NCBI GenBank assembly: GCA_947311765.1
Contig: CAMZLS010000055.1
Coordinates: 1 to 35,421 of the forward strand
Reading direction: 5' to 3'
Length of the DNA stretch: 35,421 bases
Source: an uncultured Helicobacteraceae bacterium
Lineage (GTDB): Bacteria > Campylobacterota > Campylobacteria > Campylobacterales > Sulfurimonadaceae
This document shows positions 1 to 27,179 of this stretch, in pieces. Numbering within the stretch: the stretch's first letter is position 1; each line of letters starts with the position of its first letter. The notes under the pieces were generated by a model that was not told the origin of the DNA, did not search any database, and saw nothing but the letters and a program-made list of their open reading frames with translations. The position numbers and the translations under genes were made by a program.

Positions 1-15
1 CATATACGAGAGAAA

Positions 16-289
16 CTAGTACCCCACCACTCATAGATTGAGGGTCTCTGTGATTTAAAAAATAGCCATATCTTGTTTTTAAACACTGAAGTCGTAGTTA
101 TTCTACTTCTAAGTGTTTAAGGGCAAGAGATGGCTATTTTTTAAACCACCCGAAGGGAAAGAGTACAAAACAGGAATTGCTGCGTTAGGTTATCTTGAAG
201 TACAATAAGTACTCCTGCGATAATCTGCCTTACACTTCCTGCTTTGTACTCTTTCAGAGACCCTCAATCTATGGGTGGTGGGGTACTAG
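16..289. repeat. Fold-back repeat element with 35-bp terminal inverted repeats and two internal hairpin arms
   Basis: Bases 16-50 and 255-289 are inverted repeats of 35 bp with one mismatch (a G-U pair in RNA). Inside lie two further long stems: arm 1 pairs 54-75 with 124-145 (21 of 22), and arm 2 pairs 157-176 with 236-255 (19 of 20). Each arm has weaker inner pairing, for example AAACACT/AGTGTTT in arm 1 and AGTAC/GTACT in arm 2. The whole folds as a three-way junction. Arm 1 runs from an A-tract to a T-tract, so it could also terminate transcription in both directions. I see no ORF and no target-site duplication (flanks agaaa and atgaa). A MITE-like or REP-like element, or a structured RNA, are the options; the family is not recognised. 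Confidence 0.75.
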
Positions 290-1752: not shown

Positions 1753-3333
1753 TTATAGTAAATTATTTTTTATCATCTCGTTTTTGAGACTCTCTTTATT
1801 GACCTCTTTATCGTGTAGTGATTTTAGAGGCATCTCGCGGTTATAAAATATCTGTGCAGGAAGCATATAGTTTGGAAGATGTTTTTTCAGCTCAAAAAGT
1901 ATCTCATTTTTGGCTAGTTCATGCTCTGCATTATAGACTAAAACTATCTCCTCTTCAATCTCACTGTTTTCTACTGAAAAGATAGTACATGATGAGATTG
2001 CAGGGATATTGTTGTAAATAACGCTCTCTATCTCAACAGGGCTGACACGGTAGCCTTGCGTTTTAATCATATCATCTTTGCGTGAGACAAAATAGAGATA
2101 ATCTTCTTCATCTTTATAGACATAATCACCGCTCGCAACGACAATCTCATCAGTGAGACCATGCTCAAGATCGATAACCTTATCTAAGATCTGGATACTT
2201 TTAAAACGCATAGCAGTCTCCTGTGGTGAGTTCCAATATCCTTTATAGATACATGCCCCACGGTGAATAAGCTCACCAATCTCACGAGGCTTGCATGCTT
2301 CTCCCTCTTCATTGATGATATAAAGCTCCACATCAGGAATCGCCTTGCCAATAGAGTTAGGACGGATATGAATCTGTTTAGGATCAAGAAATGCGGAACG
2401 AAAAGCCTCACTTAAACCGTGCATAGAATAAAACTCAGCGCCTTGAAAATGGGTGTTGATATTTTTAATCATAAGATTTGTGATATTGCCTCCAGACGAG
2501 GTGATAGTACGAATATTTTTAAGATGCTCTATATGAGGGATTTTATGAATGTCATCATCAAACATCTGCGTGATATGAATAGGCATCAGTGCTATGATAG
2601 TAATTTTATCATTAATAAGATGGCTGAAAAAATCACTTGGTAGCACAAATTTATGAATAGCAAGAGTCGCTTTTGCATAGAGTGTAGTAAAGATTTGGTT
2701 GAGTCCATAGTCAAGATTAAAGCTCAGTAGTCCTGAGAGAACATCACTCTCTTTAATATCTATATAGTTTGAGACAATACGCGCCCCATCAGTCAAACTA
2801 CGGTGCGTAATCACAATACCCTTAGGGTTTCCGCTTGAACCAAAGGAGTAGGTGATAACGGCATTATCATGTCCATTAATCTTACATGTAAGGTTTGCAT
2901 CATAACACTTATACATCTCATCAAAAGAGACATCACTTCGCTCATGAGGATGATAAGTGATAACCTTGCCTTCAAATCTAAGAGCCTTAAGCGCATCTAT
3001 CTTATACTCATCCGTAATCATACAAGCTATCTGACAATCATCAACAATATGTTGGACTTGTTCGGGTTTAAGCAGACGCGTAATAGGAACGAAAACATAA
3101 TCACTAGAGAGTAGAGCCAAGATAGCGATAACTTGCTCACTTCCCTTGTGCGAGTAGATGCCAATACGACTCCCTTTTTTGAGCTTAAGAGTAGTAAAAT
3201 AGTGTGCAACCTTATTGACATTTTCCAAAAGTTCTTTGTAACTATACTTCTCACTATTAAAAACAAGGGCAGTTTTCTCTGCTGAAGTCTCTACTGCGCT
3301 TTCAAGTAAGTGCCTTATGCTATTAACTGACAT
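1753..3333 (-). CDS. AMP-forming acyl/aminoacyl ligase (ANL superfamily)
   Basis: A 526-residue adenylate-forming enzyme expected to activate a carboxylate with ATP, releasing PPi, and pass it to CoA or another acceptor. The P-loop-like A3 motif is at 161-172 (TYSFGSSGNPKG), with LSFNLDYGLNQ after it. A5-like SMHGLSE is in the middle, and the C-terminal hinge region includes GDYVYKDEEDYLYFVSRKDD and KTQGYRVSPVEIE. The LDYGLNQ signature recalls the ligases associated with exosortase-A loci, but no exosortase or carrier protein is seen here. The start overlaps the end of glmL by 11 bp, so it is translationally coupled to the glutamate mutase genes. The substrate is unknown; methylaspartate or a derived acid is a guess from context. 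Confidence 0.85.
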   Translation of the reverse strand: MSVNSIRHLLESAVETSAEKTALVFNSEKYSYKELLENVNKVAHYFTTLKLKKGSRIGIYSHKGSEQVIAILALLSSDYVFVPITRLLKPEQVQHIVDDCQIACMITDEYKIDALKALRFEGKVITYHPHERSDVSFDEMYKCYDANLTCKINGHDNAVITYSFGSSGNPKGIVITHRSLTDGARIVSNYIDIKESDVLSGLLSFNLDYGLNQIFTTLYAKATLAIHKFVLPSDFFSHLINDKITIIALMPIHITQMFDDDIHKIPHIEHLKNIRTITSSGGNITNLMIKNINTHFQGAEFYSMHGLSEAFRSAFLDPKQIHIRPNSIGKAIPDVELYIINEEGEACKPREIGELIHRGACIYKGYWNSPQETAMRFKSIQILDKVIDLEHGLTDEIVVASGDYVYKDEEDYLYFVSRKDDMIKTQGYRVSPVEIESVIYNNIPAISSCTIFSVENSEIEEEIVLVYNAEHELAKNEILFELKKHLPNYMLPAQIFYNREMPLKSLHDKEVNKESLKNEMIKNNLL

Positions 3334-4513
3334 GTGAGCTCCCTTTTATGCCTAGTGTCCAGATTTTATACTCATCATCAATGATAAGCGATGGAATCTG
3401 ATGAAAGTGTAAAAGTTTTTTACAAAAGAATTTTACTATCATCTCTACCTCTTCAAACTGAAGCACCTTTGTGATACCGCCTGTAAAGATGATGGAGTTT
3501 AGTTTTTCTAGCTGGAGGTTTATATAAAGATTGTGATGAAGTGATGTTTTGTAAAGCACCAAAAAGATAGAGAGTTGCATTAAAATCTTTGTGGCATTGT
3601 CACTATGCTCTTCTAAAATATTTTCAGTTACATTTAAAAATTCGAGTAATTCATAGACAAACTCATTGTTTTTAGCGCTAAAAACAAGTGAATCTCGTGA
3701 TTTAAAGACACCAAGCTTTTTAAAGACAAGGCGGTCATACTCGCTTTCACTGACGATATTATCTACAACCAAATCACGAGAATAATGAATATCAGTCGTT
3801 GCCCCACCAATATCAATAAGGATAAAAGGATCAGCCACTTCAAAGGTCTTATGCATCATTCCCATAGAGCGATTGACTATATAAGGCGTGGAATAAATTT
3901 GATTGGAGGTAAATTCATAAAGATGCTTTATATCCTCTTTTCCCGTAATATCTTGCTGGTAAAGGTTCGTTAAAAAGTTTTTTAACTCTTCGCCTCTAAC
4001 TTGAAGTTTAGGATTGATGATATTGTCTAATATGAGAATATTTTCAAGATTTTCTTGCATAAAACTATGACTCTTATCACTACCAACATAGACAATATTG
4101 TGAAAATTTATCTGCTTAAGGTAATCAAGAAGCGTATCATCAAAGATATTTTTAACCCCATCAATACCACCAACAATAATAACGACATCAATCTGCTCTT
4201 GTGGAGGGGTATATTCATGAATATGTGAGTACAAAACGGTATCAATGATATTGATTCCTGCATTGTACGCGATATTTGTGGCGTATTTTAAGCTAAAAGA
4301 GTGGGTGAGTCCTATGATTAAGGTACTTAGCCCTCCATTGGCAGAACTACAGATATGAACATCTTCTTTGGCATATCGTGAAAGTAGATCGCCACAGCGA
4401 CTCTGAAAATCATCATAAATATTGCGCTCAAAATTTCTAAAATACTGTGCAATACCCTCATCTTGAGAAACTTTAAAATAGGTACTCCCGATATCTATTA
4501 AAATTTTACTCAT
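3323..4513 (-). CDS. glmL: Glutamate mutase accessory ATPase (MutL/GlmL family)
   Basis: This 396-residue protein carries the two nucleotide-binding signatures of the actin/Hsp70-like ASKHA fold: LIDIGSTYFKVS at 5-16 and LIDIGGATTDIHYS at 232-245, plus a late glycine motif (FTGGITKV). The family accompanies B12-dependent glutamate mutase in clostridia and is thought to help maintain or reactivate the mutase; the biochemical role is not settled. It is shorter than the usual 450-470 residues. Its ATG overlaps the glmE stop by 4 bp (ATGA). Not to be confused with the DNA mismatch-repair protein of the same name. Confidence 0.85.
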   Translation of the reverse strand: MSKILIDIGSTYFKVSQDEGIAQYFRNFERNIYDDFQSRCGDLLSRYAKEDVHICSSANGGLSTLIIGLTHSFSLKYATNIAYNAGINIIDTVLYSHIHEYTPPQEQIDVVIIVGGIDGVKNIFDDTLLDYLKQINFHNIVYVGSDKSHSFMQENLENILILDNIINPKLQVRGEELKNFLTNLYQQDITGKEDIKHLYEFTSNQIYSTPYIVNRSMGMMHKTFEVADPFILIDIGGATTDIHYSRDLVVDNIVSESEYDRLVFKKLGVFKSRDSLVFSAKNNEFVYELLEFLNVTENILEEHSDNATKILMQLSIFLVLYKTSLHHNLYINLQLEKLNSIIFTGGITKVLQFEEVEMIVKFFCKKLLHFHQIPSLIIDDEYKIWTLGIKGSSHVS

Positions 4514-5871
4514 AGCATAACTCCGATATCTTGAATAATTTTTTGTACCACAGATTCATTTTCACCAAGTCTTATCTTGTCACGGTCAAAGGCAAAGCTT
4601 TTCTCTGAAAGTGGAAGATTACCTTTGTTATAGATGCGGATATTACTTTGCGGGTCACGGACTGTTATGACCTCATTATGATTGATAATATGGGGAGAAA
4701 AAGGAATATCTATATAGCCCTTTTTGATAGAGTTAAAGACTTTTCTCCAAAGAGTGTCCGCGTTGTCATTAAAAACTGCCTCTAAAATCTCATCAACTTG
4801 AAGGGTGAGGTTTTCCTCCTCTTCTTCGTCATGAATTTTTGGAAGTCCTTTGAGCATATTAAGAGTATATTTTACATTGGCAACGGCTTGGGCATTAGAC
4901 TCTTTAGTGGGAAGCCCAAAAGCTTCATCACGAGTTTTTGTGATGATTTTATTCGCACCTACTATTGCTGCGATAACAGTAGAGGTGTTAATAAGCGCAT
5001 CTGATGAGTTTTTATTGTAAGGAAAAGCACCCATCCATTGATGATAAACAAGATTGATTACTGCATCGGTATGACCAAACTTATCAGCATATTTGCGAGC
5101 AAGTTTTTTAATAACATTAGAGCTTACTGCATCTTGATTCATCGAACCTGTCTGAGAAAAACTGACTGAAAAAGATTTTACACCCTCTTCAAGTGAGAGC
5201 AGCATCTCAAGCAGCTGAATGACGATAACAATAGCAGGTGCCTGAAGCGTTGCGCTGAGTGGGCCAAAGGATTCACGGTTGATTGGCTCATTGAGTTTTG
5301 AATACTCTGCGCAAACACGCTCTACATACTTCCAATATAAAAAGGCCTTATCAAGTGGAAAGTTTTTTGAGTATGGAAGTAGATAAGTGATAGGCCCACC
5401 CTCAATCTCAAAAATACCCGAAGCCAAGGCAGTCTCAATAAGCAGTCGTGCATCAGGTGTTCCGTGGCGTAGGCTTATAGGGGTATCATAATGCACCATC
5501 ATTTTGCGAGTGGTGCGATAGCCATGATTGACTAGAGGATAGCCGTTTAACATATTGGTATCATTTTCCTCTGAAAGAGCTAACATTTTTTTAGCCATTG
5601 CGTAATCATTGAGACGAGTATTGCTATCAATTGTAAGAGGCAGTACATCAACATTGGAAGCCTTAAACTCACCGTAAAGTTCAAAAACTTTATCATAGGT
5701 AGGAAAACCGCCACGAGGTTGGACTAAGATATTGTCACTATTTTTAAACTTATGGGAGATAAAGAGATTTTTACTTGCATTGGTGATAAACTCCTTGACT
5801 TCATCGAAATCGAAGTTGTCTATATACTCATTGGCAACGATTATTTCGCGTTCGCGTTGTAATAAACTCAT
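4510..5871 (-). CDS. glmE: Glutamate mutase (methylaspartate mutase), catalytic E subunit
   Basis: The large subunit of coenzyme-B12 glutamate mutase, which interconverts L-glutamate and L-threo-3-methylaspartate by a radical carbon-skeleton shift. It is 453 residues against about 483 in Clostridium cochlearium. With a constant 13-14 residue offset, every catalytic residue known there can be found: the arginine claw R53 (QPRGG), R86 (SNTR) and R135 (SLRHG), the base E157, and Y163 and Y167 in EGGPITYLLPYSK. This argues for a working mutase rather than a divergent relative. The ATG at 5871 overlaps the glmS stop by 4 bp. No methylaspartase or mesaconase gene follows, so the product is probably not fed into the clostridial fermentation pathway. 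Confidence 0.92.
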   Translation of the reverse strand: MSLLQREREIIVANEYIDNFDFDEVKEFITNASKNLFISHKFKNSDNILVQPRGGFPTYDKVFELYGEFKASNVDVLPLTIDSNTRLNDYAMAKKMLALSEENDTNMLNGYPLVNHGYRTTRKMMVHYDTPISLRHGTPDARLLIETALASGIFEIEGGPITYLLPYSKNFPLDKAFLYWKYVERVCAEYSKLNEPINRESFGPLSATLQAPAIVIVIQLLEMLLSLEEGVKSFSVSFSQTGSMNQDAVSSNVIKKLARKYADKFGHTDAVINLVYHQWMGAFPYNKNSSDALINTSTVIAAIVGANKIITKTRDEAFGLPTKESNAQAVANVKYTLNMLKGLPKIHDEEEEENLTLQVDEILEAVFNDNADTLWRKVFNSIKKGYIDIPFSPHIINHNEVITVRDPQSNIRIYNKGNLPLSEKSFAFDRDKIRLGENESVVQKIIQDIGVML

Positions 5872-6272
5872 AAGCGCTCTTTTAAGAGAGCTTCAAGTTC
5901 ATCAAGCCCTTCATTTAAATCACTCTGATGCGAAACCAGATCAAAACCATAGTTTTGAAACTTTGGAATAATCTCTTCGGTACTCACTTCACCAACACTT
6001 AAGTTCCCACCAATCATAAAAACCACACCGCTTAAATCAAATTTACTTTTTAAAATTCCCAAATCGCGACACCACCCCTCTGCTTCACCATTGAGCGAAG
6101 AAACAAGAAGCACATCCGCATCCGTTTCGATAACCGCATCAATAAACTCTTCAAGATAAGTATTGACTCCAAGGTTAAAAACAGTAAAACCACGCTCTTG
6201 GAGTGAAATATCGATTAATCTATTGGCAACAACATGAATATCATTGCCAACTACGCCTGTTACAACTTTCAT
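5868..6272 (-). CDS. glmS: Glutamate mutase, B12-binding S subunit
   Basis: Small cobalamin-binding subunit (134 residues from the chosen ATG; family about 137). The base-off/His-on signature is present as D11-I-H13 in VVGNDIHVVANRL, but the glycine of DxHxxG is alanine. The downstream LLVSSLNGE and IGGNLSVGE segments line the nucleotide loop in this family. The frame extends upstream to a GTG at 6314, but the ATG at 6272 matches the family start, so I chose it. It is the first gene of the glmS-glmE-glmL-ligase-ppaC series. The name follows glutamate mutase usage and is unrelated to glucosamine-6-phosphate synthase. Confidence 0.9.
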   Translation of the reverse strand: MKVVTGVVGNDIHVVANRLIDISLQERGFTVFNLGVNTYLEEFIDAVIETDADVLLVSSLNGEAEGWCRDLGILKSKFDLSGVVFMIGGNLSVGEVSTEEIIPKFQNYGFDLVSHQSDLNEGLDELEALLKERL

Positions 6273-6357
6273 ACTTACACAACCTATATGTCTTGAATGC
6301 GATATTTTATCCACTATTGAGTAAAATTTGGCAATTAAAACTTTGGGAGAGATGAAA
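6273..6357. promoter_or_regulatory. Divergent promoter region between glmS and the RraA-like gene
   Basis: An 85-bp AT-rich gap separates two divergent starts and must hold both promoters. On the minus strand GGATAAAATATC offers a TAAAAT -10 element about 60 bp upstream of the glmS ATG, with TTGCCA 19 bases further upstream. On the plus strand GTAAAATTTG offers a TAAAAT. It is too short for a cobalamin riboswitch. Element choice is by eye only. Confidence 0.4.
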
Positions 6358-23421: not shown

Positions 23422-23769
23422 CTACATTAAGTTACAAATTTTCTCTTTAAGTTGTGTAAACTCATTGTCAGTTAGTTGAGTTATCAGCCCTTTATTTACA
23501 AGCACATTATCAAAATCAAGTGTACAAATCCAATTGGCTATGATAAAGCTATCTCTTTCGAGTCTATCTCGTGATTGAATTTTCATTCTGAAATCATCTT
23601 CTATTGCTACAGACGAGAGTGGTACTACCAAAACTTGTTGATATGTCTTTTTTTCTATAGTTCGATTAAGAAAATTATTTTGCATCACAACAGCTGGGCG
23701 GATTTTTCCAAGTTCAGAGTTATACTTTTTTTTAAAATCAACAAGATATATATCCCCCTGTCGAATCAT
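23422..23769 (-). CDS. PemK/MazF-family endoribonuclease toxin
   Basis: 115 residues, matching MazF/PemK length. The family core is visible: RQGDIYLVDF at the start, GKIRPAVVMQNN with R24 at the catalytic-arginine position, and VVPLSS with the conserved Ser/Thr. Such toxins cut mRNA at short sequences and stop growth unless bound by antitoxin. Its ATG overlaps the antitoxin stop by 4 bp (ATGA). It sits inside the hyp operon between hypD and hypE. Confidence 0.85.
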   Translation of the reverse strand: MIRQGDIYLVDFKKKYNSELGKIRPAVVMQNNFLNRTIEKKTYQQVLVVPLSSVAIEDDFRMKIQSRDRLERDSFIIANWICTLDFDNVLVNKGLITQLTDNEFTQLKEKICNLM

Positions 23770-24032
23770 AATCTCTCTCCAATCTCTGCTATAGCTTCAT
23801 CAAAAATTCCTGCAAACTCTTTTTGTGACGCTTCTAAACCTGCCGCATTTTTTTGATACCACTTCCTATACTCAAGCTCTTCAATCATATCTTTTATATA
23901 AGGCAGATCCTTAGCGGAGATAAAGACCCCCTTTACCTCGTTTGTCTTTTTATTGATAATTTCTGCAACATCATCAAGATTGTCTAAAATTGATGGTTTT
24001 TTTACCAATTCTGATATGGAAATAGTTTTCAT
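23766..24032 (-). CDS. Phd/YefM-like antitoxin
   Basis: 88 residues. The first 50 (MKTISISELVKKPSILDN and the GVFISAKDL segment) resemble the Phd/YefM DNA-binding domain, and the acidic, helical C-terminus (EFAGIFDEAIAEIGERL) would wrap the toxin. It has the strongest Shine-Dalgarno in the region (AGGAG), as expected for an antitoxin made in excess. A Phd-like antitoxin paired with a MazF-fold toxin is a mixed pairing rather than the classical MazE-MazF. Confidence 0.75.
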   Translation of the reverse strand: MKTISISELVKKPSILDNLDDVAEIINKKTNEVKGVFISAKDLPYIKDMIEELEYRKWYQKNAAGLEASQKEFAGIFDEAIAEIGERL

Positions 24033-26357: not shown

Positions 26358-26486
26358 TCTTCTTGCATTTGTTTTATCTATTAAAAACTCTTTATTCAAT
26401 TTTAAAAGATTTTATACTATATTATGTAAAAAGAAGATAAAAAACAGCATTTCTTCTATAATTTTGGGACTAGAAATTTGCAGTGG

Positions 26487-27179
26487 ATGAAAAGATGTTT
26501 GTATTGCAACAGTAGAGTATATAAACTTAGCAACAATAACATAAAATGCTCTACATGTAAGCGAAAGCTCTCTATCGAAAAAACAAACAAAACTCTCTTT
26601 CTGCTCCAATGTTTTATACAAAATAAAAGTGCTCTTGAAGCTTCAAAACTTTATTATATCTCTTACATCAGCGTTAAAAACTATTATCATAACTTTCGAG
26701 CACTGTGCGCTATGATAAGTGAAGAAATTTATATTCAAATTCAAGGCAAATGCGTGGAATATGAAGAGTATTTTTATTTGGAAAAATCTAAAAAAAATAG
26801 AAAAAGTGCTATATTTGATGCGCATAATTTTTTAACTTTTGATTATGATAGCTATATCTATACACTTGTACTGCCTTCTCTTGAAAAGTACAAAACACAG
26901 CTTATTCATGACAAACCCGAAGATTTCTATCTGAAAGAATTTAGTAAGTTCAAAAGAAAAAGCAAAATAATTAAAGTCTCTAAGCGTCATAATGTCATAG
27001 TAGAATTTTGGGATTACTTTGAAGAAAACATTGCACTTTACAAGGGAGTCTCAAATGAATATTTTGTTTACTATCTCAAGGAGTTTGAGTTTAAATTTAA
27101 TTACAACAAAGAAGACGCTTTCAAGCTACTTTTGAAAAATTATTACAAAAATGAAAAATTTAGTAACTCAAAGCCTTGA
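26487..27179 (+). CDS. IS1595-like transposase-derived protein, probably inactive or domesticated
   Basis: About 230 residues. A zinc ribbon (CLYC and CSTC) opens the protein, then a helix-turn-helix-like segment. The end resembles IS1595 transposases (VEFWDYFEENIALYKGVSNE then YLKEFEFKFN; family FW-x-x-x-K-x-x-x-x-x-x-x-G-V then LKE-x-EFRFN). The DDE catalytic core is eroded: the expected first Asp-Glu region reads YEEYFYLEK, and no convincing second Asp is seen. The ATG at 26487 or a TTG at 26478 may start it. No terminal inverted repeats or target duplication are apparent. It lies against the flow of the hyp genes, between hypB and hypF. It could be a remnant or a recruited DNA-binding protein. 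Confidence 0.65.
   Translation: MKRCLYCNSRVYKLSNNNIKCSTCKRKLSIEKTNKTLFLLQCFIQNKSALEASKLYYISYISVKNYYHNFRALCAMISEEIYIQIQGKCVEYEEYFYLEKSKKNRKSAIFDAHNFLTFDYDSYIYTLVLPSLEKYKTQLIHDKPEDFYLKEFSKFKRKSKIIKVSKRHNVIVEFWDYFEENIALYKGVSNEYFVYYLKEFEFKFNYNKEDAFKLLLKNYYKNEKFSNSKP

Follow-up and report, generated by a model that had tools for sequence, protein, structure and literature searches.

The stretch of DNA analysed here (the window; 35,421 nt) represents contig 55 of a host genome that comprises 148 contigs and is 94% complete. A host gene of 169 aa without a Pfam match is located at positions 290 to 799 of the plus strand, and its ORF begins at the first base past a structured element that covers positions 16 to 289. 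In relatives, gene 290 adjoins a gene resembling the HIT family. The left flank of the element is supplied by another contig (C44), whose last 127 nt coincide with window positions 1 to 127 and therefore do not represent a separate copy. The upstream gene on this contig ends just before the element and contains the motif HIHLHIVP, so that its product reads like a HIT-family protein. The plus-strand sequence CGAGAGAA at positions 8 to 15 holds the likely ribosome-binding site of gene 290, which the element now parts from its ATG. In three relatives (G001, G022 and G005), the HIT-like gene and gene 290 lie close together without the element, which indicates that it was inserted downstream of the likely ribosome-binding site GAGAGAA and ahead of the ATG (position 290). 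Flanks fused at a single CTAG read GAGAGAAACTAGATG. Elsewhere in the window, the minus strand of positions 1753 to 6314 encodes an AMP-binding enzyme, a MutL-type protein, a methylaspartate mutase E chain and a B12-binding protein. A PemK/MazF-like toxin gene adjoins a small gene without a Pfam match at positions 23422 to 24032, a likely toxin-antitoxin pair.

The element is organized as an outer stem that encloses two hairpins, H1 and H2. Its left arm (positions 16 to 50, plus strand, starting CTAGTACCCC) and right arm (positions 255 to 289, plus strand, ending GGGGTACTAG) are 35 nt long and 97% complementary, in agreement with the 35-bp terminal inverted repeat of the initial annotation. Both ends carry the palindromic sequence CTAG (positions 16 to 19 and 286 to 289), with a putative TA target inside the left one. 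H1 (positions 50 to 149) is built from 38-nt arms at 50-87 and 112-149 with 87% complementarity, and H2 with its basal stem (positions 157 to 255, plus strand) from 23-nt arms at 157-179 and 233-255 with 91%. Two inner stems were thus correctly recognized in the initial annotation, although its description of 20-22 bp with one mismatch each underestimated their size and overestimated their perfection. The linker between the hairpins (positions 147 to 156) contains the mini-hairpin CCCGAAGGG, the counterpart of CCC-TTC-GGG in sister elements, and the proposed three-way junction is therefore four-way. RNA folding of positions 10 to 295 resulted in a minimum free energy of -156.5 kcal/mol compared to -66.3 +/- 4.7 kcal/mol for shuffled sequences (z -19.1; none of 200 shuffles as good), in line with self-complementarity of almost the entire 274 bp. 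No ORF of at least 80 aa was detected within positions 16 to 289, and the hits of an Rfam scan were confined to microRNA precursors and a single plastid 3'UTR model, each scoring far under its gathering cut-off, so that the claims of missing coding capacity and of no matching known RNA family both hold. A promoter-like match is present at positions 195 to 224 inside H2, and such matches are about as frequent in this region as shuffling predicts.

Additional copies were identified in the host genome: a full-length copy on contig C4 (97%), a partial copy of 121 nt with which C73 begins, an internally deleted copy on C94 that retains only the outer stem and lacks both hairpins, and a single arm on C148. 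A second subfamily (C114, C41, C37 and C107) exhibits the same architecture with different stems, and the order of outer stem, hairpin, CCC-TTC-GGG-type linker and hairpin recurs in elements of G001, G003 and G027. Across these subfamilies, the stem sequences differ, the hairpin cores agree and H1 is the reverse complement of H2. Once the ends were refined, 60 of 64 paired elements measured 262 to 271 bp, a constancy that is partly imposed, as the sizing procedure accepted only 255 to 280 bp and favoured approximately 267 bp. A DNA-level search of a plasmid collection with the element yielded no matches. The occurrence of the same gene pair without the element, together with its multiple copies, identifies positions 16 to 289 as mobile, and the insertion and the multiple copies are directly visible, as is a duplicated target in a sister class with this architecture. 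The length of 274 bp, the 35-nt arms at 97%, the lack of coding sequence, the dispersed copies and the empty sites all conform to a MITE. We are therefore confident that the element is a MITE inserted between the HIT-family-like gene and gene 290, with the inner hairpin core as a separate module. This agrees with the MITE-like insertion that had been considered from the window alone, and the finding of a single copy without structural conservation in relatives, which would have spoken against it, was not made.

The conserved part of each inner hairpin consists of the blocks CTGCGTT, CTTGA, CTGCG and GCCTTG, arranged around covarying stems. In the window, the core of H2 (positions 172 to 240, plus strand) is the sole match of the covariance model R2 (73.7 bits, E 8.6e-21) and belonged to the training sets of both R2 and a first model, R1. 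H1 represents a degenerate, reverse-oriented copy of the core (minus strand, oriented by means of the sister elements) that R2 does not detect at E<=1. R1 was built from 12 cores, exclusively from Campylobacterota, and in its alignment 16 of 23 pairs changed on both sides, with a covariation of 0.58 compared to 0.18 after shuffling. For 132 distinct cores, the score was 0.687 versus 0.167, in an alignment that was fitted to the model structure and is biased toward it; the shuffled controls do not provide a probability. Analysis of copies thus revealed the strong covariation that the initial annotation had proposed to look for, and it is this covariation that supports selection on the structure. 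A strand test comparing G-U with A-C pairs was contradictory, as stem pairs favour one strand and apical pairs the other. In 20 core-bearing loci, Rfam hits above the gathering cut-off were limited to one FMN riboswitch and one group I intron, both off the core positions. No description of the shared core was found in the open-access literature, judged by titles and the beginnings of abstracts, and an earlier description may well exist.

R1 matches were detected in 43 of 121 genomes of the host's taxonomic family, with up to 40 per genome, and often form an inverted pair with starts approximately 100 nt apart. To cover a wider range, genome contigs were searched with a pattern of four blocks comprising 22 fixed bases, which recovered at least 120 stretches where, by our own estimate, about one is expected by chance. 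According to record titles, the hosts among the matches listed include Gamma- and Alphaproteobacteria, Desulfuromonadales, Campylobacterota, Clostridia and Paenibacillaceae; Bacteroides, Gemmatimonadetes, Myxococcales and Elusimicrobia are each represented by single MAG loci for which contamination is possible. Viral contigs did not contain the pattern. R1 scored the pattern loci and additional copies in those genomes, including up to 92 core matches in a Clostridia MAG of 1.8 Mb. As the pattern fixes the blocks, their conservation outside Campylobacterota is partly imposed, whereas that of the stems is not. The inner hairpin core is shared by several phyla and can be separated from the element ends. 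Its covariation and cross-phylum spread likely reflect selection on a folded strand, and the core would probably be kept by selection on a single-stranded fold, read as RNA or as extruded DNA.

The element ends fall into several classes. In 17 of 18 copies of the TACCA-end class of Campylobacterota, the same 3-bp TWA stands on either side, and no copy shows a match of 4 bp (19 were listed; L050 was set aside as wrongly bounded). Among Clostridia copies, 10 of 13 are flanked by TAA/TAA or TTA/TTA, with approximately 6.1 expected from composition. The AAGT class and the CTAG class of the window carry TA at both ends, and owing to the palindromic nature of TA and CTAG, target duplication and repeat end are inseparable in the AAGT class and in the window copy. 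The target duplication of IS630 is usually the 2-bp TA, unlike the 3-bp TWA of the TACCA and Clostridia classes. In 10 of 18 TACCA-class elements, TGGTATAAT, an extended -10 box, arises at one junction from the 3-bp duplication abutting the end of the repeat; these junction sequences are promoter-like. According to mechanical ORF calls for 59 elements, the flanking genes diverge in 22 cases and converge in 4. Together with the strong core covariation, this placement bias and the -10 boxes could indicate a host RNA with regulatory or processing functions that moves rarely and is retained at each site because of what it does there. The scattered occurrence among genomes, the presence of near-identical copies at loci with no relation to each other, the empty sites, the target duplications and the contradictory strand preference render such an RNA very unlikely.

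For movement of the MITE, a transposase acting in trans on the outer inverted repeats is envisaged, with the TA inside CTAG as the presumed target of the window element. Evidence for the type of enzyme stems from other members. Microbulbifer litoralis encodes an 1148-bp IS630 (NF033545, E 4e-81) that begins CTAGTGGTCCATGCGGAAA, as do the core-bearing elements of this species, and the first 19 bases of these elements are common with the left end of the IS630. M. halophilus harbours an IS630 whose end is of this type, and in a Desulfuromonadales genome CTAGTGGCCTGTTTGGTTA is common to an IS630 end and the end of a core-bearing element. R1 found no core in these Microbulbifer and Desulfuromonadales IS loci. 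Among further IS630-type copies, L373 ends in CTAGTACC, resembling the class of the window, and L377 in TACCATTC, resembling the TACCA class. The L377 copy (positions 1388 to 2499, G149) contains a frameshifted IS630-type gene, has the ends TACCATTCTG and is flanked on both sides by TAA, a 3-bp duplication. The host genome yielded no IS with CTAGTACCCC ends, and its one IS630-type gene (C102) is broken, with other sequence at the expected end position. A DDE_3 gene was absent from most Campylobacterota carriers searched, although such absences carry little weight as MAG assemblies collapse repeats. No autonomous partner of the Clostridia elements was evident via their end motif among the matches listed, nor did reading ORFs near neighbouring cores by eye reveal transposases at 8 loci. 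The link to IS630, established by shared ends in other members, would extend to the window subfamily and is suggested there by the CTAG/TA ends, which fit the IS630 type; the enzyme moving the window element would most likely be IS630 (Tc1/mariner-type). As a general partner, DDE_Tnp_1 was rejected since it went undetected in several carriers and none of the inspected DDE_Tnp_1 loci held an IS with the MITE ends; Y1_Tnp was likewise rejected, as it was not found in several carriers. Within the window, a 233-aa protein encoded at positions 26478 to 27179 weakly resembles an IS1595-type transposase domain, with a score under the cut-off.

Y1_Tnp is of relevance for a different route of mobility, in which paired inverted hairpins are moved by a Y1 (RAYT/IS200-type) transposase on single-stranded DNA hairpins. 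Two inverted hairpins moving as one unit at near-fixed spacing, conserved unpaired bases and Y1_Tnp genes in many carriers are reminiscent of such REPINs. However, of 42 carriers searched, 13 (7 of the 17 Campylobacterota and 6 of the 25 remaining genomes) showed no Y1_Tnp, the partner enzyme of REPINs, including genomes with 92, 44 and 31 core matches. The target duplications and the ends shared with IS630 point to a DDE enzyme. A REPIN-like origin is very unlikely, and a MITE moved by a DDE transposase remains the preferred reading.

Several known MITEs can be compared to the element. The ERIC/IRU family of enterobacteria (MITEEc1, MITEPlu5) has ends similar to those of a subset of IS630 (PMC2229807; PMC6267812), and MITEPlu5, an ERIC relative, is described as an IS630-linked MITE (PMC6267812). 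Like the window element, ERICs are short, non-coding and highly folded with TA at their ends, and CTGCGTT and GCCTT occur at similar positions in one ERIC copy. Unlike it, they form a single hairpin of approximately 127 bp, neither R1 nor R2 exceeded 5.2 bits on two E. coli ERIC loci and no full match to the ERIC hairpin was obtained, making membership in the ERIC family the least credible of the origins considered here. RUP of Streptococcus pneumoniae is likewise a MITE that inserts at TA and has ends matching IS630-Spn1 (PMC2229807), differing in its length of 107 bp compared to 274 bp. MITEPsy1 of Pseudomonas syringae duplicates CTAG or YTAA targets but measures 100 bp and is a proposed IS5-family derivative (PMC3189936). 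MITEs of Coxiella have also been reported (PMC5896051). IS630-linked MITEs are already known; the shared core appears to be undescribed.

MITEs are usually viewed as internally deleted transposons with neutral filler inside. Here, the inside is conserved across several phyla and the ends vary, as if the MITE ends followed a transposase and the inner hairpin were conserved separately. We tentatively propose, at somewhat less than even confidence, that a hairpin module of approximately 55 nt, outside Rfam and unnamed in the publications recovered, travels in several phyla inside MITEs whose ends are unrelated and whose target duplications differ. Its conservation would thus not depend on the transposase, and it perhaps serves, as single-stranded DNA or RNA, as a recognition signal for a widespread bacterial factor. 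If correct, the role of the inside of such repeats in their spread becomes testable and a single model, R2, can serve annotation in many genomes. Some copies put promoter-like sequence directly upstream of genes or come between a ribosome-binding site and its start codon. Insertions at most 5 nt from start codons numbered 8 compared to 4.5 expected (n=36), which is not a convincing enrichment. Related elements that end at most 2 nt from a start codon are present at L033 (G027), L385 (G139) and L400 (G061).
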